A stretch of 52,774 nucleotides of DNA. Source: Oscillospiraceae bacterium (GTDB taxonomy: Bacteria; Bacillota; Clostridia; Oscillospirales; Ruminococcaceae). The notes beneath the pieces are model-generated. The model was not told where the DNA came from. It saw nothing but the letters and a program-made list of their open reading frames with translations, and ran no database searches. Positions 938 through 47,838 of this stretch are shown here, one piece after another. The stretch covers positions 1-52,774 of the forward strand of contig JAGBCL010000035.1 in NCBI GenBank assembly GCA_018110825.1. Reading direction: 5' to 3'. Position 1 is the first letter of the stretch. Every line of letters starts with the position of its first letter. The translations under genes were made by a program, and so were the position numbers.

Positions 938-1239
938 TTATTCAACCGTAAAATCTGTCCATTCAATTCGGTTTAACGTCATCATATCATCAGGTCTCCA
1001 CATTCCGATTTTTTTCGTAAAAACCGACCGCATTTTCGTTGGCACAGGTATACATAATTATATCCTTTTCGCCGCCCGCCGTTTCATGCAGTTTTTTTAC
1101 AAGAGTCTTTCCGACACCCTGTCCCACACAACTGCGTACTATTCCGAGGTCTGTCATAAAAAGCCAGTAGGCGAAATCGGTTATTCCGAAACAAACACCA
1201 ATTATATTATCGTTTTCATCCCTAGCCACAAGACTTGAA
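938..1239 (-). pseudogene. Broken GNAT acetyltransferase: N-terminus lost, one frameshift
   Basis: The reading VARDENDNIIGVCFGI, then GQGVGKTLVKKL, then CANENAVGFYEK is the core of a GNAT N-acetyltransferase (acetyl-CoA loop and C-terminal strand). In the uninterrupted frame it stops soon after FYEK. Shifting frame at the seven-T run at 1009-1015 restores IGMWRPDDMMTLNRIEW through to a stop at 938, the expected GNAT tail. The N-terminal half is missing because the sequence fuses here to the truncated tetR. Both lesions indicate a pseudogene. The right-hand module has no GNAT counterpart. Confidence 0.75.
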
Positions 1240-1671
1240 CAGAAGCTTTGCGTTTTCATAGCTCAAATCATAATCACGCTGTATAACCTCAACGCTGAGG
1301 GTTGCCATGTCACCGAGATTTACGAACACATCATCAAAATTCTGTGCCTCGGGCTTCTCTGTCATAAACAGCAGGCGGTAAAGCTTCGGCTGTTCTACAG
1401 CAAACAAAATCATCTGCACCCCAAGCTCCTTGTACACAGGGGTAAAATCCATTGCCCGTCTTGCGTACACCTCAAATCTTTCAAGTGCCGCCTTGCGTAC
1501 CTCAGTCAGCACTTCCTCCATATTCTTGAAAGCCGTAAAAATCAGACGTGATGACGTACCGAGTGCAGCACCGAGTTCACGGGCGGTAAGTACCTTGATA
1601 CCACGCTCTGCGGCAAGGTCAACAGCGGCATTGATTATTTCTTCTCTTGTATATTTAGCTTTCGGCGGCAT
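1240..1671 (-). pseudogene. Truncated TetR-family regulator
   Basis: About 144 residues nearly identical to the first part of the intact TetR protein at 47233-47838 (about six differences). The N-terminal helix-turn-helix (REEIINAAVDLA to SRLIFTAFKN) is present. The protein breaks off after YENAKLLFK, where the intact copy continues HNWINTY; the DNA instead joins the GNAT remnant and a stop follows three codons later. About 57 C-terminal residues of the ligand-binding domain are lost. One substitution (Leu for Pro) lies in the helix-turn-helix. A good promoter remains upstream, so it may still be transcribed. Confidence 0.8.
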
Positions 1672-1715
1672 TATCATTCTTCTTTATGCAACTCACGTTG
1701 TGTAACATTTGTTTT

Positions 1716-3686: not shown

Positions 3687-3727
3687 AAAATTAATTATGA
3701 CAATTTGAAAAGAAAGGATTGAAATAT

Positions 3728-4870
3728 ATGGCAGTTTATCTTGACAATGCCGCTACAACACGTCCTTGTGAGCCTGCGGTTTCGGCTGTATTTCAGAATA
3801 TGGTTGAGGATTACGGCAATCCTTCTTCCCTGCACGCTGTTGGCTTGAAGGCAGAACAGAATATTACCGAGGCAAGAAAGGCAATCGCTGCCGCACTTGT
3901 ATGCGACCCACAGTGCGTAACCTTTACATCGGGTGCAACCGAGTGTAACAACACCGCTATTTTCGGTGCTGCTAAGAATTACGGAAAGAGAAAGAAGAAA
4001 ATCGTTGTTTCAGCAATCGAGCACCCCTCCGTTGCTGAGCCGATTAAATATCTTGAAGAAAAGGAAGGCTTTGAGGTTGTCCGTATCAAGCCATCAAGAA
4101 ACGGCGAAATTGCTGTTGAGGATTTCATCGACGCAGTTGATGACAACACCTGCCTTGTTTCCTGTATGCTTGTCAACAACGAAACAGGCTCAATCCAGCC
4201 TGTCCGCAAGATTTTTTCTTACGTAAAGCGTAATTTCCCCGAGTGCATAACTCACTGTGACGCTGTTCAGGGATTTATGAAAATTCCTATGAAGTCCGCC
4301 GAGCTTTTCGCCGATATCATCGTAGTTTCGGGACACAAGGTACACGCCGTAAAGGGCGTCGGCGCAATGTACATACGCAAGGGTATCCGTGTTGCTCCGC
4401 TTATTATGGGCGGCGGTCAGGAGAAAAACCTCCGTTCGGGAACAGAATCCGTGCCCCTTATCGCAGGCTTCGGTGCGGCAGTAAGAGCACTTATGCCTAC
4501 TATGTCCGTGGCTCACAGCAATGCTGAGGAAATCTCTGAGTATCTGCTGAAAAAGCTTGCAAAGCTTGAATATATCACTGTCAATTCAACCGCTGAAAAT
4601 AAATCACCATACATAACGAACTTTTCGGTAAAGGGTATCCGTTCGGAAATTATGCTCCATTTCCTTGAAAGCAAGGAAGTTTATGTTTCAAGCGGTTCAG
4701 CCTGCTCAAAGGGTGCGCACAGCTCCGTGCTGACGGCTATGGGTATTCCCGATAAGCTTGCTGACTCGGCTATCCGTGTTTCAATCGGACGCACTACCAC
4801 AAAGGGCGAGATTGACGTGCTTGTTAATGCAATTCAGGAAGGGTATCAGACCCTTGCAAAAACTAAATAA
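3728..4870 (+). CDS. Cysteine desulfurase (NifS/IscS-like), partner of ThiI
   Basis: A 380-residue class V aminotransferase-fold enzyme that uses pyridoxal phosphate to strip sulfur from cysteine. The PLP lysine is in SGHKVHAVKG (Lys204) and the sulfur-accepting cysteine in SSGSACSKGAHSS (Cys326), whose extended loop fits the IscS-type group. The ATG at 3728 is chosen because AAAGGA lies 9 nt before it. The gene is followed after 15 nt by thiI. In Firmicutes this pair supplies sulfur for 4-thiouridine in tRNA, so that is the likely role here rather than general Fe-S assembly. Confidence 0.9.
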   Translation: MAVYLDNAATTRPCEPAVSAVFQNMVEDYGNPSSLHAVGLKAEQNITEARKAIAAALVCDPQCVTFTSGATECNNTAIFGAAKNYGKRKKKIVVSAIEHPSVAEPIKYLEEKEGFEVVRIKPSRNGEIAVEDFIDAVDDNTCLVSCMLVNNETGSIQPVRKIFSYVKRNFPECITHCDAVQGFMKIPMKSAELFADIIVVSGHKVHAVKGVGAMYIRKGIRVAPLIMGGGQEKNLRSGTESVPLIAGFGAAVRALMPTMSVAHSNAEEISEYLLKKLAKLEYITVNSTAENKSPYITNFSVKGIRSEIMLHFLESKEVYVSSGSACSKGAHSSVLTAMGIPDKLADSAIRVSIGRTTTKGEIDVLVNAIQEGYQTLAKTK

Positions 4871-4885: not shown

Positions 4886-6058
4886 ATGAAAGAATTAATT
4901 ATATTCAAAGAGGGCGAAATTGCCCTCAAGGGTTTAAACAAGAGAACATTTGAGGACGCTTTTATCCGTAACCTCAAGCACCGTCTGAATAAGCTGGGCA
5001 AGTTTGAGTACACAAAGGCACAGTCCACAATTTACGCTATTCCCCAGTCCGAGGATATCGACCTTGATGAAGCTGTTGAACTTGGCTCAAAGGTGTTCGG
5101 CGCAGCGGCACTCTGCCGTGCACTGGTTGTGGAAAAGGACTTCGACGCAATCTGCAAGGAAGCAATTGCCTACATCGAAGAAACAGCTATGATGTCACGC
5201 ACCTTCAAGGTTGAGGCAAAGCGTTCCGACAAGAAATTCCCGATGAAGTCCCCTGAAATCTGCATGGAGCTTGGCGGAAAAATCCTTGAAGCATACCCAC
5301 ATCTTACTGTTGATGTGAAAAATCCACAGATGGTTGTAACGGTTGAAATCCGTGATACAGCCGCTTATGTTCACGCAGGAAATCTTCCCGGTGCAGGTGG
5401 TATTCCTGTTGGCACTTCGGGCAGTGCAATGCTTCTGCTTTCGGGCGGTATTGACAGCCCTGTTGCGGCTTACATGATGGCAAAGCGTGGTATCAAGCTT
5501 TCCGCAATCCACTACGTTTCTCCGCCATATACTTCCGAAAGAGCACGTCTGAAGGTTGAGCGTCTTTGCGAGAAGCTTACTCCGTATTGCGGCGATGTTG
5601 CTTTTTATTGCGTACCATTTACTAAAATTCAGGAAGCACTCCGTGACAACTGTCCTGAGGAGCTTTTCACAATCCTTATGCGTCGTCTTATGATGGAGAT
5701 TGCACAGCGTATTGCTGAGGAAAAGGATATGCAGGCACTTATCACGGGCGAAAGCGTTGGTCAGGTTGCGAGTCAGACTATGGGCGCAATCGTCTGCACA
5801 GATGCGGCTTGCAGAATGCCTGTTTTCCGTCCCGTAATCGGTATGGACAAGACTGAAATCGTGGAAATTGCAAGGAAAATTGACACATTTGATATTTCAA
5901 TCGAGCCATACGAGGACTGCTGCACTGTATTTACTCCAAAACACCCTAAGACAAAGCCTGTTCTTGCTGATGTTGAAGCGGCACAGAACGCATTTGACTT
6001 TGAACCGTTGATTGCGGAAGCTGTTGCTGAAACTGAATTGAAGGTCATCAAACTGTAA
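4886..6058 (+). CDS. thiI: tRNA 4-thiouridine synthase ThiI
   Basis: A 390-residue protein with an N-terminal ferredoxin-like/THUMP RNA-binding region (about 1-170) and a PP-loop ATPase domain with SGGIDS at 186-191. It adenylates U8 of tRNA and inserts sulfur delivered by the desulfurase encoded just upstream. There is no C-terminal rhodanese domain, as in other Firmicutes ThiI proteins, so sulfur transfer must rely on other cysteines; a CC pair occurs near residue 345. AGGAAGG precedes the ATG, and a terminator follows 18 nt after the stop. Confidence 0.93.
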   Translation: MKELIIFKEGEIALKGLNKRTFEDAFIRNLKHRLNKLGKFEYTKAQSTIYAIPQSEDIDLDEAVELGSKVFGAAALCRALVVEKDFDAICKEAIAYIEETAMMSRTFKVEAKRSDKKFPMKSPEICMELGGKILEAYPHLTVDVKNPQMVVTVEIRDTAAYVHAGNLPGAGGIPVGTSGSAMLLLSGGIDSPVAAYMMAKRGIKLSAIHYVSPPYTSERARLKVERLCEKLTPYCGDVAFYCVPFTKIQEALRDNCPEELFTILMRRLMMEIAQRIAEEKDMQALITGESVGQVASQTMGAIVCTDAACRMPVFRPVIGMDKTEIVEIARKIDTFDISIEPYEDCCTVFTPKHPKTKPVLADVEAAQNAFDFEPLIAEAVAETELKVIKL

Positions 6059-6075
6059 TTAATATGTAACTTTTA

Positions 6076-6108
6076 GCCCTGCAATTAATAGTTGCGGGGC
6101 TTGTTTTT
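6076..6108 (+). terminator. Terminator of the thiI operon
   Basis: GCCCTGCAA pairs with TTGCGGGGC around a 7-nt loop, followed by TTGTTTTT. Confidence 0.85.
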
Positions 6109-6169: not shown

Positions 6170-6206
6170 TTGACGAATTGACAAAAAAGGTGTATTATAG
6201 TATTAT
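6170..6206 (+). promoter_or_regulatory. Overlapping double promoter of the sortase operon
   Basis: Two sigma-A-type promoters overlap: TTGACG (6170-6175) with TATTAT (6193-6198), and TTGACA (6178-6183) with TATTAT (6201-6206), each with a 17-nt spacer. The leader then contains TATCAG and CTGATA, which can pair. GGAGG at 6243-6247 lies 13 nt from the ATG, a long spacing. Confidence 0.7.
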
Positions 6207-6260: not shown

Positions 6261-7220
6261 ATGGCACTTTCCGGAAATGCTAAAAGAGCTTATAAAAAAG
6301 CTCTTAAGGCAAAGCAGAAAAAGAAGCGGGGTCATTGGCTTCTTATCCAGAAGGGGGATTGTGCCAAGGAGGTTGCAAGTAAGCTTTTTACACAGTTTGC
6401 ACTTGTTGTATTGATTGTGTGTATCCTTATCCTTGCAAATGAACTCAGACTTTCTTTGAGCACGAAATTCCTGAATAATTCACTTCAGGATTTGTATTAT
6501 ACCTATATCGAACCCGGAGATAACGGCGGTAAGATTCTCGAAAGTGCGGAGCAGCTGCTTGAAATTAATCCAGATACAGTAGGATGGGTGCATATAGAGG
6601 GGACTAACGTTTCTCTCCCGGTAGTGCAGAAAACAACCAAGGACGGAAATGACTACTATCTGAAAATTGCTTTTGACGGCAGTTCAAATAAGGCAGGTAC
6701 TGTCTTTATGGACAGACGTAATGTGATTAATTCTCACGAGCGTTCCGACAATCTTATCCTTTACGGTCACAACCAGAAGGATAAATCCATGTTCGGTGAC
6801 CTTGCCAACTATAAGAAAAATCTTTCTTATTATTCGGAACATCCGACTATTCGGTTCAGTTCCAACTACAGAACGGATGATTATAAGATTTTTGCATATT
6901 TTGTAACTCCAGTTCTCGAATCTCAGACAGCTGACGGTGTGATTTTTGATTATCACAATGACCTGAATTTCAAGGATAAATCGGAATATAACGAGTTTAT
7001 CGATAATATAATGCTCCGTACGCAGATTATCACCGATGTGGACGTGCAGTACGGCGATGAATTTCTTACCCTTTCCACTTGTTCTAACGAGTTTGAACCT
7101 TCAAGGTTTGTTGTTTTTGCAAGAAAGGTAAGAAAGGGCGAAGACCCCGAAGTAGATGTTTCACTGGCTTATCTTAATAAAGATGCAAAACAGCCTGACT
7201 GGGACGTAATATATAAGTAA
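6261..7220 (+). CDS. Class B sortase, paralog 1 of 4
   Basis: A 319-residue membrane-anchored transpeptidase: a very basic N-terminus (about 1-26), the juxtamembrane motif KGDC (31-34), one transmembrane helix (about 42-59) and an extracellular sortase domain. The catalytic residues are His170 in LYGHNQ, Cys274 in TLSTCSNEF and Arg282 in SRFVV. The YGHN and LSTC contexts and insertions match class B sortases, which link proteins to cell-wall peptidoglycan. It is the first gene of a five-to-six-gene operon; the next gene starts 12 nt later. No NPQTN- or LPXTG-type substrate was found in the window. Confidence 0.9.
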   Translation: MALSGNAKRAYKKALKAKQKKKRGHWLLIQKGDCAKEVASKLFTQFALVVLIVCILILANELRLSLSTKFLNNSLQDLYYTYIEPGDNGGKILESAEQLLEINPDTVGWVHIEGTNVSLPVVQKTTKDGNDYYLKIAFDGSSNKAGTVFMDRRNVINSHERSDNLILYGHNQKDKSMFGDLANYKKNLSYYSEHPTIRFSSNYRTDDYKIFAYFVTPVLESQTADGVIFDYHNDLNFKDKSEYNEFIDNIMLRTQIITDVDVQYGDEFLTLSTCSNEFEPSRFVVFARKVRKGEDPEVDVSLAYLNKDAKQPDWDVIYK

Positions 7221-7232
7221 TGAGGTTTATTT

Positions 7233-8219
7233 ATGGCAAAAAAAACAAGTATAATAGACAAGCTTCTCCCGCGTAAGGGAGATTCAGGTGTTGAGCTTGC
7301 AAGAAAAATTGTTACAATGGTTTGCTGCGTGGTTCTGATTGCGTCAATTGCAATTCTTGCATGGTATTATATACAGCAGGCAAAAAATCAGGACCGTATA
7401 GATGAACAGAGAAAACAGCACAGTACAACAGCTGCAATTACTCAGGTAACAACAACAGCTCCATCTGATGAAAGTGAAACCACAACGGCAGAAACTGAGC
7501 CGCCTCCGCTTGTGGTCATGGATAACATGACAGGATTTGTTGAGGATAACCCTCATACAGCAGGATGGATTACAATTCCGAATACCGATGTGAATAATGT
7601 TGTTCTTCAGACAGAGGACAACGATTACTACCTTGATAAAGACTTTGACGGTAATTATAATATTGCCGGTCAGCTCTATATTGATTTCAGATGCGTTGCA
7701 AATGATTATTCTGCTAACCAGTCTGATAACATTATTATCTACGGACATAATCAGGCTGACGGTTCAATGTTCGGTACTCTGAAAAAGTACAAAATCAAAA
7801 AGGATTACACCAAGAATTTCGATTTTTATCTTGAAAATCCGACATTTACATTTGGTAACCTCTATGAGGAGTATACATACAAAATCATAGGAATGTTTGT
7901 TATCGAGGTTGAGCCGCATCAGACAAGAAGCGGTGAAATCTGGGATTACCACAATTATGTTAATTTTACCAAGAAAAAACCTTTTGATACGTTCAAGGAA
8001 AATATCCTTGCAAGAACAGCTGTAAATACAGGTGTTGATTTCAATGAGGACGATAAATATATCACGCTTTCTACTTGTTCAAATGAATTTGAACCATCTC
8101 GTTTTGTTGTAATAGGCAGACGTGTGCGTGACGGTGAAAGTCCTGAGGTTGATACATCGCTTGCTGAAATCAATGAGGATATGCTTGAACCTGATTACAA
8201 TTTTATCTATAACCAGTAA
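7233..8219 (+). CDS. Class B sortase, paralog 2 of 4
   Basis: A 328-residue sortase with KGDS at 15-18, a transmembrane helix at about 26-46, a Thr/Glu/Pro-rich extracellular stalk (about 65-92), and the sortase domain. His172 (YGHNQADGSMFG), Cys282 (TLSTCSNEF) and Arg290 (SRFVV) form the catalytic triad. It is close to paralog 1 in the catalytic region, sharing LSTCSNEFEPSRFVV, but differs in tail and stalk. This suggests tandem duplication followed by specialisation. GAGG precedes the ATG by 7 nt. Confidence 0.9.
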   Translation: MAKKTSIIDKLLPRKGDSGVELARKIVTMVCCVVLIASIAILAWYYIQQAKNQDRIDEQRKQHSTTAAITQVTTTAPSDESETTTAETEPPPLVVMDNMTGFVEDNPHTAGWITIPNTDVNNVVLQTEDNDYYLDKDFDGNYNIAGQLYIDFRCVANDYSANQSDNIIIYGHNQADGSMFGTLKKYKIKKDYTKNFDFYLENPTFTFGNLYEEYTYKIIGMFVIEVEPHQTRSGEIWDYHNYVNFTKKKPFDTFKENILARTAVNTGVDFNEDDKYITLSTCSNEFEPSRFVVIGRRVRDGESPEVDTSLAEINEDMLEPDYNFIYNQ

Positions 8220-8234
8220 GAGGTATTTTAAATT

Positions 8235-10121
8235 ATGCCTAATAATGAAGAAAAGAAGTATACATTGGATGACATTCTGAAGGAATATGATGACGAAGCT
8301 GCAGCAGCTGCCAAAAAAGAAGCAGAGAGTGCTGCATCACAAGAAGTAATTCCTGCATATAAAAATACAGAATTGTTTGACAGTGATTTCACTGTGGAAA
8401 ATATTCTGGAAAATGAGGAAGATGTTATAGAGGCAATTATGGAGCAAAACCGTGAATCAGAGGTTGAAGAAATAATTGCCGACGACGAAGATGATGATAT
8501 CGAAATTTCTGAGGAAAAATTTGAAACAGATACATCCGAAGCAGAAAATGCCGACATAGTTATGGAAGCTGACAAATCCATCGAAGAAAAAACAATTGAA
8601 GAAATAGTCCTCGAGGAAGCGGCATTGTGGAAAAATTCCGTTGATACGGAAGAATTAACCGAAACGGAAGCTGCAGCACTTATTCCGGAACAGCAGGAAG
8701 AACAAATCGAGGCCGAAGTTCCAGAAGAAGCAGAATCCGATGAACCCAAAGAAACAGAAGCAGTTGAAAATGAAACTGTTGATGATAGTCTGAAAGAGGA
8801 AGATACACAAGTGTCTGTTGAGGAACAGGAGGAAAACGATACGGAAGATGTTAATGACAAATTCCTTAAAAGATTTTTAAAGAGTCTTTTTCCCTGGAAA
8901 GGTGACAGCGTGGGAGAAATAATCAGAAAAATTATTTTTCTCGTAGCAGTCATAGTATTTATTGGTGCAGGTGTAATGCTTGTAAGCACCCTTATGCAGT
9001 CACAGCAGGCTGTTGAAGAAAAGGAAGCAAATCAGAGTATCATTACAACAACCGTTGCAACATCTATTGATGATGAGGGTAAGATAGTCACAATTGCACC
9101 AACTGAAGAGGAAATTGCTGAACATAATTTCAATGTTGCAGAGCACTTCAAGAGTATTAATGAGGATTATATAGGTTACCTTGAAGTTGATGGATGCGAT
9201 ATATATGAGCCGATAATGCAGGGCGATGACAATGACTATTATCTCGACCACAATTATTACGGCGGTACAAATAAGGCAGGAACAGTATTCCTGGATTATC
9301 GCTGTACAGTAAGTGAGGAGTATATCTCTCCGAATATTGTTTTCTACGGTCATAATCAGGAAGACGGAACAATGTTCGGTAACCTGAAGGAATATAAGCA
9401 GAATGTTGAATTCTATCAGGAAAATCCGCTTGTTAAATTCAGCCCTGAATTTGAAACAGGCGAGTATGTAATTTACGGATACTTTATTACACATGTAAGA
9501 CCTGAACAGGATAGCAATGGTGAGGTTTTCCATTATCATGATTACATCGAAGCACTGAGGGATGAGGAAACTTTTAATTGGTACATAGATGAAGTGCAGA
9601 AGCGTAATCAGATTGTTTCTCCCGTTGATGTTCAGTACGGCGATAAGCTGCTTTGTCTTTCAACATGTTCAAACGAATTTTCAGATTCGCGTTTTGTAAT
9701 TTTTGCAAGACGTCTCCGTGATGGTGAAAAAATAGATGACTTTGACTTTTCAGAAGCTTATCTCAACCCGTATGCAAAGGGAGTTGACTGGGAAGCTATT
9801 ATGTCAAACGAAACAAGTCTTACTGAGGAAACTACGGAAACAGAATCCGAGTCAGAAACAGAAACTGAATCAGTTTCCGAAACAGAAGAAACAACAACTC
9901 CTGAAATAATTGAGGAAGAGTCTGAAACAACAAGTGATACAAGACGTAAATACAAGGACGTAATGCAGGGTAAATATACTACAACTAAAAAGACTGAAAC
10001 AGAAAACACTTCAGAAATTTCTGTTTCCGATGGTGAAGAAGCTCCGGCCGAAACTGATGTACCGTCTGGAACTGATACTACTGAAGAAACAACGGTTCCG
10101 CCCGAAACAAGTGCGGAGTAA
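8235..10121 (+). CDS. Class B sortase, paralog 3, with a long acidic cytoplasmic tail and extracellular C-tail
   Basis: A 628-residue sortase about twice the usual length. Residues 1-215 are a Glu/Asp-rich, probably disordered cytoplasmic region starting MPNNEEKKYTLDDILKEYDD. KGDS at 222-225 precedes a transmembrane helix at about 230-250. The sortase domain holds His373 (YGHNQ), Cys478 (LSTCSNEF) and Arg486. Residues about 525-628 form a Ser/Thr/Glu-rich tail. Neither extension is part of known class B sortases I can name; the tail carries no membrane-spanning or sorting motif. The acidic tail could bind basic partners inside the cell, which is inference. It follows paralog 2 by 15 nt. Confidence 0.88.
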   Translation: MPNNEEKKYTLDDILKEYDDEAAAAAKKEAESAASQEVIPAYKNTELFDSDFTVENILENEEDVIEAIMEQNRESEVEEIIADDEDDDIEISEEKFETDTSEAENADIVMEADKSIEEKTIEEIVLEEAALWKNSVDTEELTETEAAALIPEQQEEQIEAEVPEEAESDEPKETEAVENETVDDSLKEEDTQVSVEEQEENDTEDVNDKFLKRFLKSLFPWKGDSVGEIIRKIIFLVAVIVFIGAGVMLVSTLMQSQQAVEEKEANQSIITTTVATSIDDEGKIVTIAPTEEEIAEHNFNVAEHFKSINEDYIGYLEVDGCDIYEPIMQGDDNDYYLDHNYYGGTNKAGTVFLDYRCTVSEEYISPNIVFYGHNQEDGTMFGNLKEYKQNVEFYQENPLVKFSPEFETGEYVIYGYFITHVRPEQDSNGEVFHYHDYIEALRDEETFNWYIDEVQKRNQIVSPVDVQYGDKLLCLSTCSNEFSDSRFVIFARRLRDGEKIDDFDFSEAYLNPYAKGVDWEAIMSNETSLTEETTETESESETETESVSETEETTTPEIIEEESETTSDTRRKYKDVMQGKYTTTKKTETENTSEISVSDGEEAPAETDVPSGTDTTEETTVPPETSAE

Positions 10122-10155
10122 AATATGTGCTTAAGCCGAAAGGAATGGTTAATTA

Positions 10156-11208
10156 ATGGCAATGTCGGACGAGGTCCGTGCAAATCCCCGCTATAAGCAG
10201 CCTCAGAAAAAGAAAAAAGAGAAAAAGGGATTTGTCGAAAGCTTTATTCCGCTCAAAGGTGATAGTTCAAGTGTAATTGTAAGTAAAGTAATAGTTCTTG
10301 CAGCTATAGCTATACTTATTGCTTGTGCAATAATTCTTGGAATATATTTCTATCATATTTTTGAAGCAAAGCAGAATCAGAAGGAATTAAGCAATACCTA
10401 TAATATTTTCAACAACCTTAGTAATCAGGGACAGTCAGGAGAAGCTGTAGAAACAGTACCTCCTATTGAAATAACTGATGACGGAGAAATTATCAGAAAT
10501 CCGCTTGTAGATATGCCTTTCGCAGTTGAAATGCTTAAAATCAACGGCGATTATGCAGGATATGTTTCTATCCCCGGCGTAATGAGTGAGGCGGTTGTTC
10601 AGGCTGATGATAATGAATACTACCTCAAGAAAAATATCTATGGTCAGAATCGTTCCTGCGGAACAGTCTATGCGGATTACAGAAATGTGGTGAATGATTA
10701 TTCCGACAGACAGTCAGATAATATTATTCTTTATGGTCATAACCAGCGTGACGGAACAATGTTCGGACAGATGGACTTTTACAAATGGGATGCAAAATAT
10801 TGGTTACAGAATCCGTATATTTATTTTGATAACAGATATGAGCAGAGTACATATGTTATCATTGCTTCGTTTGTAATTAATACAGAGCCTGAACACGATA
10901 ACGGCAACGTTTTTGATTACCATAATTATATCAATTTTACAGAAGACCATCCGTTTGAAACCTTTATGAAAGAAATCAATGAGCGCAGTCATTTCCATAC
11001 CGGTATTGATGTAAATGAAAATGATAAGTTTATAACTCTTTCTACATGCTCATATGAGTGGGAACCTGCACGTCATGTAATCATAGCAAGAAAACTCCGT
11101 GCAGATGAAACAACCGAAAATCTTGATACAACAGGATTTGCTGTAAATACCAACCCTAAGTGGCCTGCTGTATACTATAAATATAACGGCGGAACATATG
11201 TTGAATAA
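10156..11208 (+). CDS. Class B sortase, paralog 4 of 4
   Basis: A 350-residue sortase with a Lys-rich N-terminus, KGDS at 34-37, a transmembrane helix at about 43-66, and a catalytic domain with His195 (YGHNQRDGTMFG), Cys298 (TLSTCSYEWEP) and Arg306. Its active-site flank differs from the other three (SYEWEPARHV against SNEFEPSRFV), so its substrate preference may differ. AAAGGA lies about 11 nt before the ATG; an in-frame ATG two codons later is an alternative start. It lies 34 nt after paralog 3 and 30 nt before the SpoIID gene. Confidence 0.9.
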   Translation: MAMSDEVRANPRYKQPQKKKKEKKGFVESFIPLKGDSSSVIVSKVIVLAAIAILIACAIILGIYFYHIFEAKQNQKELSNTYNIFNNLSNQGQSGEAVETVPPIEITDDGEIIRNPLVDMPFAVEMLKINGDYAGYVSIPGVMSEAVVQADDNEYYLKKNIYGQNRSCGTVYADYRNVVNDYSDRQSDNIILYGHNQRDGTMFGQMDFYKWDAKYWLQNPYIYFDNRYEQSTYVIIASFVINTEPEHDNGNVFDYHNYINFTEDHPFETFMKEINERSHFHTGIDVNENDKFITLSTCSYEWEPARHVIIARKLRADETTENLDTTGFAVNTNPKWPAVYYKYNGGTYVE

Positions 11209-11238
11209 TAAAGGAACGTGAAAAGGAGGGGGATAACA

Positions 11239-12747
11239 ATGAAGCTGCATACCACACTCAGCGGTATCGCTGCGCTTCTTCTTGTGGGTATTTTCTATAC
11301 ATTTGCATTTATGGTCGAAGATGTAGATGAAAATGCAATTTCAATGGAATACTATTATTCTACTGAAACAGATGCTGTGACTGAAATGACAACTATTAAT
11401 TCAGATTCTTTATCTGCTGAAGTGCTTGAAATCCCTGGGGCTAATGCTGAGATTGAAGTAATTCCTGCATTGCCTGAGGAAGTGATTCCTGACATCAATA
11501 CTGATGAAAATATTCCTGACAGTGATAATACTCAGGAAGCAATTGTTACAACAGCTGCCCCGGAACGAGATGAAGATGAAGCAACCGTTTCTGCAGCACC
11601 TGAAACAGTGCCGAATGTGGAAGAAGAACCCGTAATCGAAGATGAAGATATTGAATATCCCGAGGATTTCGAGGTTGATGATTATGACAATGGAAGCTCT
11701 GAAGCTGAGGAGCAATCTGTTTTTGGTGAAGATACGAATGAAGATCTGACTCTTTCTGATGTAGAAGAGGAAACAGAGAAAATTCCCGATGTAACAACAG
11801 TTCCTGAAAAAGAACCGGAAGAAGAAACAATAACATTTGTTTTTGATGAAGAAAATATTTTTGATAATACTGTTCCTGACCCATCTGAAGATATTGTCAT
11901 AACACTTTGGACAGATGATTTTGTTCAGAACACTGAAACTTCAGTTTCTGTAAGCGTTGGAAGTGGTGTTGATATTTCAACTGATGAAACCTTTACAGCA
12001 AGATTCAACGGTTCTGTTCAGACGGTCAATGCTTATGACCTTATCTGTCAGATTGTCAATAATGAAATCTCCACAAGTTTCAGCGATGAAGCAATTAAGG
12101 CACAGGCAGTTGCAGCGTATTCCTATGTGAAATATCATAACGTGAACGGCCTTACACCAACTGTCCTTGTCAAGGGTAATGTGCCGCAGCGTATCAAGGA
12201 CCTCGTTTCAGAAGTATGGGGAGTGTGCTGCTATTATAACGGAAATGTTGCACAAACCGTTTATATGGCTTCATCTTCAGGCTACACAACCGATGCGAAA
12301 AACGTATGGGGCAGCAGTGTTCCGTATTTAAAGAGCGTTTATTGTCCTTTTGATGCAACAAGTGACCCGAATTATGGTTATCAGATGAAGGTAAGCGAAG
12401 AAAATATACGTACGCTTGTCGAAGGAGAACTTGGAATAACTCTTTCCGCTAATCCTTCAAATTGGTTTACCGTAACAGAAATTATTGACGGAAACTATGT
12501 TGCAAAGGTTAATGTTGACGGTCAGAAGGTTGTAAGCGGCAGAACAATGCGTGAAGGAATTCTCAATTATAAGTTGAAGAGCACCGCATTTGAGGTCGTT
12601 TACAGTGATGGTTACTTTATATTTACTACATATGGCTATGGACACGGTGTCGGAATGAGCCAGAATGGTGCGAATATTCTTGCAAAACAGGGTTATTCTT
12701 ATGAACAGATACTCAAATATTATTTTACGGGAATTGAAGTATTATGA
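11239..12747 (+). CDS. SpoIID/LytB-domain peptidoglycan enzyme with acidic stalk
   Basis: A 502-residue protein: a short N-terminus, a signal anchor (about 8-28), roughly 220 residues of Glu/Asp/Thr-rich linker, and a C-terminal SpoIID domain from about residue 250. The domain shows the conserved acid in VNNEIS (Glu276, at the position of the catalytic Glu of SpoIID), AQAVAAYSY and GHGVGMSQNGA (468 on). SpoIID enzymes are lytic transglycosylases acting on peptide-stripped glycan in engulfment, but many paralogs occur outside sporulation. Placement in a sortase operon suggests local wall remodelling with protein attachment, which is inference. The start at 11239 has AGGAGGGGG 6 nt upstream. 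Confidence 0.85.
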   Translation: MKLHTTLSGIAALLLVGIFYTFAFMVEDVDENAISMEYYYSTETDAVTEMTTINSDSLSAEVLEIPGANAEIEVIPALPEEVIPDINTDENIPDSDNTQEAIVTTAAPERDEDEATVSAAPETVPNVEEEPVIEDEDIEYPEDFEVDDYDNGSSEAEEQSVFGEDTNEDLTLSDVEEETEKIPDVTTVPEKEPEEETITFVFDEENIFDNTVPDPSEDIVITLWTDDFVQNTETSVSVSVGSGVDISTDETFTARFNGSVQTVNAYDLICQIVNNEISTSFSDEAIKAQAVAAYSYVKYHNVNGLTPTVLVKGNVPQRIKDLVSEVWGVCCYYNGNVAQTVYMASSSGYTTDAKNVWGSSVPYLKSVYCPFDATSDPNYGYQMKVSEENIRTLVEGELGITLSANPSNWFTVTEIIDGNYVAKVNVDGQKVVSGRTMREGILNYKLKSTAFEVVYSDGYFIFTTYGYGHGVGMSQNGANILAKQGYSYEQILKYYFTGIEVL

Positions 12748-14048
12748 CCATTTACGAAATAATTACAAAGAAAAAGCATAACGTCGAATTAAGTACAGAA
12801 GAAATCAATTGGGTTGTTGCCGGATATGTGTCCGGCAGCATACCTGATTATCAGATGTCTGCACTTTTGATGGCGATATGCTTTTGTTCATTATCGGACA
12901 GAGAAACAACCGACCTTACTATGGCAATGGCAAGGTCAGGTGATATGATTAAACCTGAAACAGGCGGATTCAACGTAGATAAGCACAGTACAGGCGGAGT
13001 AGGCGATAAAACAACCCTTATCGTTGCACCAATTGTTGCAGCCTGCGGTGTGTATGTGCCTAAAATGTCAGGCAGAGGTCTGGGACATACAGGAGGTACA
13101 ATCGATAAGCTTGAGTCAATACCAGGTTTTAAGACAGAGATACCATTTGAAAAGTTTGTTGACAACGTTAAAAAATCAGGACTTTCAGTTGCAGGGCAAA
13201 CAGGGTCACTTGTTCCTGCCGATAAAAAAATTTATGCTTTGCGTAACGCAACCGCTACTGTAGATAGTATACCCCTTATCTGCTCATCAATTATGAGCAA
13301 GAAGCTTGCAACCGGTGCAGACGGAATTGTCCTCGATGTCAAGGTAGGCGACGGTGCGTTTATGAAAAACTACGAGGATGCTGAAAAGCTTGCGGAAGCA
13401 ATGGTGCGTGTCGGTAAGCTTGCAGGCAGAAAGTGCGTTGCGGTAATTACAGACATGGAAAAGCCATTGGGACGTGCCGTAGGTAATTCCCTTGAAGTAA
13501 TTGAAGCAATTGAAGCACTCAAAGGCAAAGCGCCTTCAGATTTGATGGAAGTTTCTCTTGTTCTTGCTGCGGAAATGCTTTATGTTGCAGGAAAGGGTAA
13601 TGCTGAGGAATGTAGAAAAATGGCTGAAGAAGCTGTTTCGAGCGGTAAGGCACTTGCAAAATTGCGTGAAATGATTGAGATTCAAGGGGGGAATCCCGAG
13701 GTTATCAATGACTATACTATTTTTGCACAGCCTGAACGTTCAAAGGATATTTATGCATTGGAAGATGGCTATATATCAAGTATTTCCTGCGAAAAAACAG
13801 GACTTATTTCCCTTAAACTTGGTGCAGGACGTGAAACAAAGGAATCTGATATTGATTTTACAGCTGGCATAATTTTTGAAAAAACTGTCGGAGATAAGGT
13901 TTCAAAGGGCGACAAGTTAGCAACGCTTTATACATCTACCAATTGTGATATCGAAGCAATATCAGATGAATTCTCAGCTGTCTTTACTTATAACAATGAA
14001 AAAAATTATTCTGAAAAAATTGTAAAAAAAGTTATAAAAGGGTATTGA
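12744..14048 (+). CDS. pdp: Pyrimidine-nucleoside phosphorylase
   Basis: A 434-residue enzyme that splits uridine, thymidine or deoxyuridine with phosphate for nucleoside salvage. The signature KHSTGGVGDKTTL and the glycine-rich SGRGLGHTGGTIDKLE are the phosphate and nucleoside sites of the thymidine/pyrimidine phosphorylase family; the C-terminal alpha/beta domain is complete. Its ATG overlaps the stop of the SpoIID gene by 4 nt, implying translational coupling at the end of the sortase operon, though a functional link is not obvious. Whether it prefers thymidine (deoA) or all pyrimidines cannot be told. Confidence 0.9.
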   Translation: MTIYEIITKKKHNVELSTEEINWVVAGYVSGSIPDYQMSALLMAICFCSLSDRETTDLTMAMARSGDMIKPETGGFNVDKHSTGGVGDKTTLIVAPIVAACGVYVPKMSGRGLGHTGGTIDKLESIPGFKTEIPFEKFVDNVKKSGLSVAGQTGSLVPADKKIYALRNATATVDSIPLICSSIMSKKLATGADGIVLDVKVGDGAFMKNYEDAEKLAEAMVRVGKLAGRKCVAVITDMEKPLGRAVGNSLEVIEAIEALKGKAPSDLMEVSLVLAAEMLYVAGKGNAEECRKMAEEAVSSGKALAKLREMIEIQGGNPEVINDYTIFAQPERSKDIYALEDGYISSISCEKTGLISLKLGAGRETKESDIDFTAGIIFEKTVGDKVSKGDKLATLYTSTNCDIEAISDEFSAVFTYNNEKNYSEKIVKKVIKGY

Positions 14049-47160: not shown

Positions 47161-47189
47161 TTGACAAATGCATATTCTTCTGATATACT
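47161..47189 (+). promoter_or_regulatory. Promoter of the intact tetR
   Basis: TTGACA (47161-47166), 17-nt spacer, TATACT (47184-47189). Confidence 0.85.
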
Positions 47190-47191
47190 AA

Positions 47192-47218
47192 AACAAATGT
47201 TACGCAACAAATGTTACG
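47192..47218. promoter_or_regulatory. TetR operator candidate: two 13-nt direct repeats
   Basis: AACAAATGTTACG occurs twice (47192-47204 and 47206-47218). The junction forms TGTT-ACGC-AACA, an inverted half-site pair of the kind bound by TetR dimers. It lies between the -10 box and AAAGGAG, ideal for autorepression. Confidence 0.6.
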
Positions 47219-47232
47219 AAAGGAGAATGATA

Positions 47233-47838
47233 ATGCCCCCGAAAGCAAAATATACAAGAGAAGAAATAATCAATGCCGCCGTTGACCTTGCCGCAGAGCG
47301 TGGTATCAAGGCGCTTACCGCCCGTGAGCTCGGTGCCGCACTCGGTACGTCATCACGTCCGATTTTTACAGCCTTCAAAAATATGGAGGAGGTGCTTACC
47401 GAGGTACGCAAGGCTGCACTTGAAAGATTTGAGGTTTACGCAAGACGGGCAATGAATTTCACCCCTGTATACAAGGAGCTTGGCGTGCAGATGGTTTTGT
47501 TTGCGGTAGAACAGCCGAAGCTTTACCGCCTGCTGTTTATGACAGAGAAGCCTGAGTCACAGAATTTTGATGATGTGTTTGTAAATCTCGGTGATATGGC
47601 AACCATCAGCGTTGAGGTTATACAGCGTGATTATGATTTGAGCTATGAAAACGCAAAGCTGCTGTTCAAGCATAACTGGATTAACACCTATGCAATAGGC
47701 GCACTTATTGCAACTGGTGTGTGCAGGTTTGCACCTAACGAAATTCAGGATATGCTGAGCCGTGAATTTGTGGCAATGCTTATGCTGATTAAGTCAGGCA
47801 GGGCAGAGAGCTGTACTACAATTCCTGAGAAAAAATAA
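47233..47838 (+). CDS. TetR-family transcriptional regulator
   Basis: A 201-residue repressor. The N-terminal helix-turn-helix spans about residues 8-50 (TREEIINAAVDLAAERGIKA; SRPIFTAFKN); the rest is the ligand-binding/dimer domain typical of TetR proteins with a TetR_C-like segment. The ATG at 47233 is preferred because AGGAG lies 7 nt upstream; an ATG two codons earlier is too close. It probably represses itself and the downstream genes. A truncated copy remains in the left module. Confidence 0.88.
   Translation: MPPKAKYTREEIINAAVDLAAERGIKALTARELGAALGTSSRPIFTAFKNMEEVLTEVRKAALERFEVYARRAMNFTPVYKELGVQMVLFAVEQPKLYRLLFMTEKPESQNFDDVFVNLGDMATISVEVIQRDYDLSYENAKLLFKHNWINTYAIGALIATGVCRFAPNEIQDMLSREFVAMLMLIKSGRAESCTTIPEKK

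Follow-up and report, generated by a model that had tools for sequence, protein, structure and literature searches.

A conserved operon of four class B sortases and a SpoIID/LytB-domain protein in the Oscillospiraceae, a candidate wall-anchoring module

Introduction

What do four class B sortase genes do side by side with a gene for a SpoIID/LytB-domain protein, when no candidate substrate is encoded nearby? The question is raised by contig JAGBCL010000035.1 of an Oscillospiraceae bacterium (assembly GCA_018110825.1), whose 52,774 nt were analysed as a whole and are called the window below. It is contig C22 of a 3.12 Mb genome in 124 contigs that is 96% complete (in the labels used here, G stands for a genome, with G000 for that of the window, L for a locus, C for a contig and g for a genus). 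Five open reading frames (ORFs), at 6261-7220, 7233-8219, 8235-10121, 10156-11208 and 11218-12747 on the forward strand, form a close gene run between thiI and pdp: srt1 to srt4, encoding the sortases, and the SpoIID/LytB-domain gene. A sequence-only reading had delimited the same run and had seen in it a wall-attachment machine, an interpretation that is partly supported as a whole. A coupling of sortase and SpoIID is well supported. Furthermore, we consider it rather probable that the operon is a module for wall anchoring, its glycan-cleaving enzyme being tethered and active at the sites of protein attachment by the sortases; the enzyme activities and the pairing of sortases with substrates are what we infer.

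Four intact sortases

All four sortases match the Pfam family PF04203 (E 1.1e-11 to 3.1e-7), and these are the only four such matches in the genome at E<=0.001. The best NCBIfam model is in each case the class B model TIGR03064, with E values of 2.3e-46 for srt1 (6261-7220, 319 amino acids (aa)), 5.9e-36 for srt2 (7233-8219, 328 aa), 1.1e-39 for srt3 (8235-10121, 628 aa) and 2e-38 for srt4 (10156-11208, 350 aa); only srt1 (158 bits) is above the model's cut-off of 153.75 bits, srt2 to srt4 staying below it (124, 136 and 132). His170, Cys274 and Arg282 (srt1 numbering) are invariant across the four, in agreement with the earlier claim that there is no decoy among them. In the loci of this and related genomes, each of these residues is kept in 190 of 192 sortase domains (200 minus eight that are short or cut by a contig end), the losses being those of His and Cys in L210 and L223 and of Arg in L218 and L223. 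Genome G100, the source of L210, has a second related sortase gene elsewhere.

Ahead of the membrane segment, all four window sortases carry KGD followed by S or C. A cytosolic P-x-K-G-D was considered as a mark of the family and dropped: the loose regular expression found it in 106 of 194 locus sortases and in 0 of 15 unlinked ones, and no conclusion is drawn from this. The third sortase has an acidic region ahead of its membrane segment (37% D/E in residues 1-215) and a C-terminal tail with 29% D/E and 34% S/T (residues 511-628). In each of the 29 loci with the complete gene order described below, the third sortase exceeds the others in length (381-865 aa), the tail composition being that of the window only. 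In some related sortases, short N-termini that look lipoprotein-like by eye (such as ILASCGG and LSGC) replace the membrane anchor, namely in the second sortase of L172, L177, L184 and L202 and the third of L170, L171, L183 and L186. If the signal is real, these would be lipoprotein sortases; the regular expression for them was too loose, so that clear cases found by eye are the ones given.

A tethered SpoIID/LytB-domain protein

The product of the fifth ORF matches Pfam PF08486 (SpoIID, E 1.1e-7) and scores 134.7 bits with TIGR02669, above the cut-off of 83.3. The ATG at 11239 is the more likely start, rather than the GTG at 11218, because AAGGAGG directly precedes it; the gene would then span 11239-12747 and encode 502 aa. 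The protein is made up of an N-terminal membrane segment, an acidic stalk of 223 residues (31% D/E, 1% K/R) and the C-terminal SpoIID domain, the length of the stalk being of the same order as that of the linkers in the fusion proteins discussed below. The domain matches solved structures (PDB 5i1t, E 4.6e-30, and also 5txu and 4rwr), and in the alignment with chain 5txu (354 residues), the SpoIID of C. difficile, one glutamate falls at position 101. E101 is needed for the activity of C. difficile SpoIID (PMC6221140). The glutamate is retained in 68 of 68 locus domains, two of 70 having been dropped. The C-terminus of the operon protein has no sorting signal.

Conservation of the gene order

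A separate transcript for SpoIID, together with a gene order not conserved in any relative, had been named beforehand as the outcome that would refute the sequence-only reading; the part that concerns the order is answered. The order srt1-srt2-srt3-srt4-SpoIID was found in 29 loci from seven genera, the window included (in one of them, L182, srt1 is cut by a contig end). Within genus g1, 14 of 21 genomes have exactly four sortase matches, three have 3, and one each has 0, 1, 5 and 6. Of the 18 g1 loci fetched beyond the window, 14 are complete and show this order, and contig ends truncate the other four. G002 departs in one detail, its third gene being a closer match to srt1 than to srt3. The same order is seen in the relatives L005, L006 and L008, while L007 stops at srt4; three of these, L005, L006 and L007, duplicate the records G004, G001 and G041, respectively, and add no evidence. 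The genes lie close together: the four intergenic gaps in the 29 loci have medians of 22, 15, 39 and 37 nt and range from -22 to 1114, -56 to 33, 13 to 98 and -137 to 218 nt, with gene starts taken mechanically. Chance is excluded as an explanation of the arrangement, since the four PF04203 matches of the genome all lie here and the order recurs in relatives.

The history of the four positions was followed in a tree of 72 sortase domains, picked by hand from the 200 and coming from ten four-copy, two three-copy and nineteen other loci; it results from a quick search without bootstrap and is unrooted, drawn with a midpoint root. For the ten of the 29 loci that it contains, each position makes up one side of a branch, with a Shimodaira-Hasegawa-like approximate likelihood ratio support of 99 for srt1, 100 for srt2, 100 for srt3 and 99 for srt4, and each of the window's sortases falls in the group of its own position. 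The four sortases thus appear to be old paralogues, predating the split of the seven genera. The four sortases of locus L195 from genus g16 branch outside the window-type group with a support of 92, as if they had expanded independently.

Sortase and SpoIID as neighbours and as fusions

With srt1 as a query, 224 of 297 genomes of the family match at E<=1e-25, representing 104 of 126 genera. From these, 64 genomes of 64 genera were sampled, each at least 95% complete and the first listed for its genus. The sample comes from the first part of the list, and eligible genera such as g12, g60, g92, g104, g152 and g153 lie outside it. The membrane-sortase-SpoIID part of L197 served as the survey query, and DNA was read for 20 survey genomes plus others fetched earlier. 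Sortase and SpoIID are separate neighbouring genes on one strand in 29 of the 64 genomes (14 seen in the DNA itself and 15 assigned from match positions only, with match-to-match gaps of up to about 2.6 kb); one of these, G087, has stops within the SpoIID match. In 15 of the 64 genera, all read as DNA, both are in one ORF. In two genomes (G040 and G106), SpoIID is fused to no more than a partial sortase-like stretch, and six were left unclassified, on account of contig ends or matches beyond those listed; the others are taken up where the role of the operon is weighed. Fusion counts comprise DNA-read cases only, and putative fusions in G145, G157, G159, G163 and G170 were rejected, the DNA showing separate in-frame neighbours.

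The fusions tend to contain a third part. CinA::sortase::SpoIID proteins of about 900-1320 aa follow nifS-thiI in loci among L191-L227, for example at 2834-6649 in L197 and 7394-10747 in L198. Pfam scans of eight fusions place Sortase above the cut-off in all eight and detect SpoIID in all eight, six times above the cut-off (L203 and L208 are below); CinA-type domains (MoCF_biosynth, CinA_KH, CinA) are found in six of the eight at E<=0.01, five of them above a cut-off. NCBIfam concurs for L197, L198 and L212, the last without a CinA part. A four-sequence profile built here detects CinA-like sequence in 13 of the 15 sample fusions; G120 has no CinA-like match, and in G160 cinA is a separate gene.

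The stretches examined for membrane segments were the 150 residues preceding the sortase and the interval between sortase and SpoIID. In all 17 fusions scanned (the 15 plus L194 and L208), one hydrophobic segment lies within the 150 residues and none in the linker of 79-356 aa. Therefore, CinA is predicted to be cytosolic and the sortase and SpoIID domains to lie together outside the membrane, where both should act. Such proteins suggest a physical coupling of protein anchoring and wall cutting. The earlier view of SpoIID as the partner of the sortases is thereby strengthened: the pairing is conserved, and the fusions make a physical coupling likely.

The motif (A/S/T)(E/Q)SxTGG, which we take to mark the deamidase active site of CinA, is present in all 20 of the cinA genes that are separate at the locus; among 25 fused-CinA ORFs, some of which are without SpoIID or contain only the N-terminal part of CinA, 5 have it and 20 do not. 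Since most fusions are without the motif, their CinA domain may be a sensor or a scaffold. The genome of the window, at its 96% completeness, gives no CinA match, 10 of 14 control genomes being positive.

Candidate substrates

The operon had been described as being without substrates, which holds for the window, where 0 of 352 ORFs of at least 40 aa have a sorting-signal-like C-terminus, but not for the genome. Nine putatively secreted proteins encoded outside the window end in xxTGN, an Ala-rich segment and KK, in line with the earlier suggestion that substrates are encoded elsewhere. Their motifs are APATGN, VAATGN, APNTGN, APTTGN and NPTTGN, and at least two types of hydrophobic segment recur among the signals. 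Six of the proteins (97, 204, 214, 222, 284 and 352 aa) are encoded in tandem on contig C36 (L104, 6505-11401), near genes that by eye look hpt-like and rpoA/rpsD-like; the other three are on C39 (320 aa), C97 (511 aa) and C107 (239 aa). A Pfam scan of six of the nine gave no family above the cut-off, and NCBIfam gave no match for the other three. The C-terminus test recovers nine of the nine genome signals when used without an N-terminal filter, and misses a relative's profile match in L251. In the related loci read, with the extra N-terminal filter, 0 of 3631 ORFs bear a signal.

Tandem clusters resembling that on C36 recur in relatives. The 97-aa protein (L104, 11108-11401) and the 511-aa protein (L139, 1463-2998) carry almost identical signals of an unusual type, NPTTGN-x-x-VALAVIPVALAAAAVVAKK, and proteins of both sizes with this signal are again found in relatives. 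A 2175-aa protein with 11 Cna_B stretches, encoded on C39 (L105, 369-6896), ends in a membrane segment and RRRQK and has no TG motif.

Known signal models proved insufficient: PF00746 has no match above its cut-off in the genome, and TIGR01167 has three that are barely above, two of them without a TG motif. Therefore, profiles were built from the signals of the genus itself, A2 from five of the nine genome signals and A4 as a broader one. At E<=1e-3, A2 has matches in 19 of 19 genomes of the genus, including that of the window from which the profile stems, and in 0 of 12 order-level outgroups. At E<=0.05, the number of A4 matches per genome is 4-11 for 13 other four-copy genomes, 1-3 for five three-copy and 1-6 for six two-copy genomes, and zero for four genomes without a sortase match; in six genomes with one separate locus sortase the numbers are 0, 0, 1, 2, 65 and 66. 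A correlation between sortase number and signal number is not claimed, in view of the biased profile and of G182 and G033, which contradict it.

The neighbourhood of the operon

A nifS-like cysteine desulfurase gene (3719-4870, forward strand, assigned by Pfam/NCBIfam and synteny) lies upstream and is kept there in many relatives. It is followed by thiI (4886-6058, forward strand; TIGR00342, E 9.9e-108, and synteny), which marks the locus upstream in most loci read. The interval between thiI and srt1 contains, on the same strand, a terminator-like hairpin at 6075-6101 (12 pairs and a T-rich tail) and a promoter-like TTGACA-17-TATTAT at 6178-6206 (11 of 12 matches), both as consensus matches only; promoter-like sites are common in the region, with 41 found and 27 expected in 9.5 kb. 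Downstream, the start of pdp (pyrimidine-nucleoside phosphorylase, 12744-14048, forward strand, TIGR02644) overlaps the end of the SpoIID gene by 4 nt, and both are probably on the same transcript. In L170, L171, L176 and L178, no pdp was detected in the interval from SpoIID to the next marker. By eye, the window also contains two near-identical TetR-like regulator sequences 46 kb apart (1222-1677, reverse strand, and 47161-47838, forward strand).

Proposed role and alternatives

As a wall-anchoring module, the operon would work as follows. The membrane-held class B sortases would cleave signals of the xxTGN type, such as APATGN and NPTTGN, between T and G and join the cleaved proteins to peptidoglycan. 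The SpoIID/LytB protein, tethered by its one membrane segment and long acidic stalk, would cleave glycan near the site of attachment, which may open the wall, trim it or create free ends in it where surface proteins join. The four sortases would probably differ in signal class, or in the place or time of their action.

More tentatively, and with slightly more doubt than confidence, the four-sortase operon may be regarded as one form of an undescribed transmembrane CinA-SrtB-SpoIID anchoring machine. In the fused form, a cytosolic CinA-derived domain would be connected through one membrane segment to an extracellular sortase and SpoIID, so that surface-protein attachment and localized wall cutting would be coupled within one polypeptide. 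The window's clade would have the module without CinA and with its sortase amplified to four.

Several observations weigh against the main reading of the operon as a wall-anchoring module. Sortase and SpoIID are unlinked in 11 of the 64 genomes, three of which (G112, G119 and G148) have cinA::sortase without SpoIID and seven of which were placed from a limited list of matches, one of them (G105) having a match beyond those listed; in another, G152, cinA::SpoIID occurs with no recognisable sortase. The fusion in L210 (1545-4910) has lost the sortase His and Cys, and it retains the SpoIID Glu. A promoter-like site inside srt2 (7633-7661, 11 of 12 matches) could be the source of a second transcript. 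SpoIID of C. difficile acts on denuded glycan after SpoIIP (PMC6221140), and there is no SpoIIP-like amidase partner within the operon. On the side of the substrates, nine fusion genomes show 0-3 A4 matches each, with a best E of 0.004. The reach of the signal profile, which comes from this genus, is biased to close kin, and therefore the trend of signals with copy number may reflect kinship. Finally, G182, with 66 signal matches, and G033, with 65, have one locus sortase each (L249 and L250; L200), counts that argue against one sortase per substrate class. Their listed signal-bearing frames are mostly of 1000-2000 aa. G033 has three sortase matches in its whole genome, so that sortases outside the locus may act there.

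These two genomes also lend some weight to the alternative that survives best, although we regard it as unlikely: that it is redundancy or gene dosage that explains the four sortases, all acting on the same signals, with SpoIID coupled to them but no division of labour. The nine genome signals all share xxTGN, as would suit such copies. Yet the positions form four separate old groups that persist in seven genera, the identity of srt2 to srt4 to srt1 is only 37-45%, the third gene consistently encodes the longest sortase, and different types of hydrophobic segment recur among the signals.

A role in sporulation seems improbable. The operon would in that case provide SpoIID-type cleavage during engulfment, with the sortases decorating the wall of the forespore or mother cell. 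SpoIID enzymes known from elsewhere do act in sporulation, and the genome has two further PF08486 matches beyond the operon, one of them strong (contig C97), so that it may sporulate. It is, however, the C97 protein that is the better SpoIID match (84 bits, against 35.9 for the operon protein), and the operon protein remains under the cut-off of TIGR02870, the equivalog model of stage II sporulation protein D (159.4 against 234.75 bits). Moreover, the best promoter match upstream of srt1 is of the sigma-70 type, in a scan that covers no other promoter types.

It is equally hard to credit that Cna_B proteins are polymerized by the sortases into a pilus-like structure, for which SpoIID makes an exit hole. 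The 2175-aa protein with its Cna_B stretches and C-terminal membrane segment would suit this, as would a 3624-aa protein of the relative G013 with 13 DUF7601 stretches and an NPETGD signal; but the Cna_B protein of the genome has no xTG motif and is encoded on another contig, and no ORF in the related loci read was found to bear a signal. Least credible of all is the view that the genes merely share an ancient nifS-thiI-cinA housekeeping neighbourhood, sortase and SpoIID being functionally unconnected, since, for all that thiI, pdp and cinA at the same place are metabolic genes and linkage is missing in some genomes, sortase::SpoIID fusions occur in 15 of the 64 genera sampled and SpoIID mostly remains adjacent to the sortase while pdp and cinA come and go.

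Relation to known systems

The operon shares single traits with several characterized systems. According to the sequence-only reading, class B sortases normally occur singly beside their substrate. A pair of this type, srtB-abpA, exists in S. parasanguinis (PMC4974636); the class is the same, and the window sortases have no adjoining substrate gene. As a general rule, the statement is not supported: in C. difficile, a single SrtB is the sole sortase and has seven to eight dispersed predicted substrates (PMC4155245). The window sortases resemble this SrtB in class, by best model only, in the dispersion of the predicted substrates and in the TG motif, but they differ in being four operon paralogues, in having a SpoIID partner, fused in relatives, and in candidate signals of the form xxTGN instead of (S/P)PXTG.

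The likeness to SpoIID of C. difficile (PMC6221140) lies in the domain and, by alignment, in the catalytic glutamate. In contrast to that enzyme, the operon protein scores below the sporulation equivalog, has a long acidic stalk and is accompanied by sortase genes, not by SpoIIP or SpoIIM, and it is not the best SpoIID match of the genome. In C. acetobutylicum, a SpoIID-like protein is among four predicted sortase substrates (PMC4877998); there it is an LPXTG substrate, whereas here it is an operon partner without a sorting signal. Wall anchoring by sortase is also shared with the scaffoldins of Ruminococcus, namely ScaE of R. flavefaciens (PMC5301203, PMC2930009) and Sca2/Sca5 of R. bromii (PMC5814915). 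A link to cohesins and cellulosomes was dropped, as G000 has no PF00963 match, and the candidate substrates in this genome are, unlike scaffoldins, mostly small and of no known family.

No description of a sortase-SpoIID operon or fusion, or of a sortase-CinA fusion, was found in the open-access literature searched (one library); PMC10868615 lists genes of both kinds. The components are thus of known kinds, and what is new is the conserved four-gene amplification, the pairing with SpoIID and the three-part fusions.

Implications

How bulky surface proteins are placed in a thick wall that is under construction is an open question. The pairing of a sortase with a glycan-cleaving enzyme across the family, and their fusion in 15 of the 64 genera sampled, makes a coupling of anchoring and cutting testable. 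The altered cytosolic CinA domain, for which no counterpart was found in the literature searched, furthermore suggests a link between this process and the interior of the cell.

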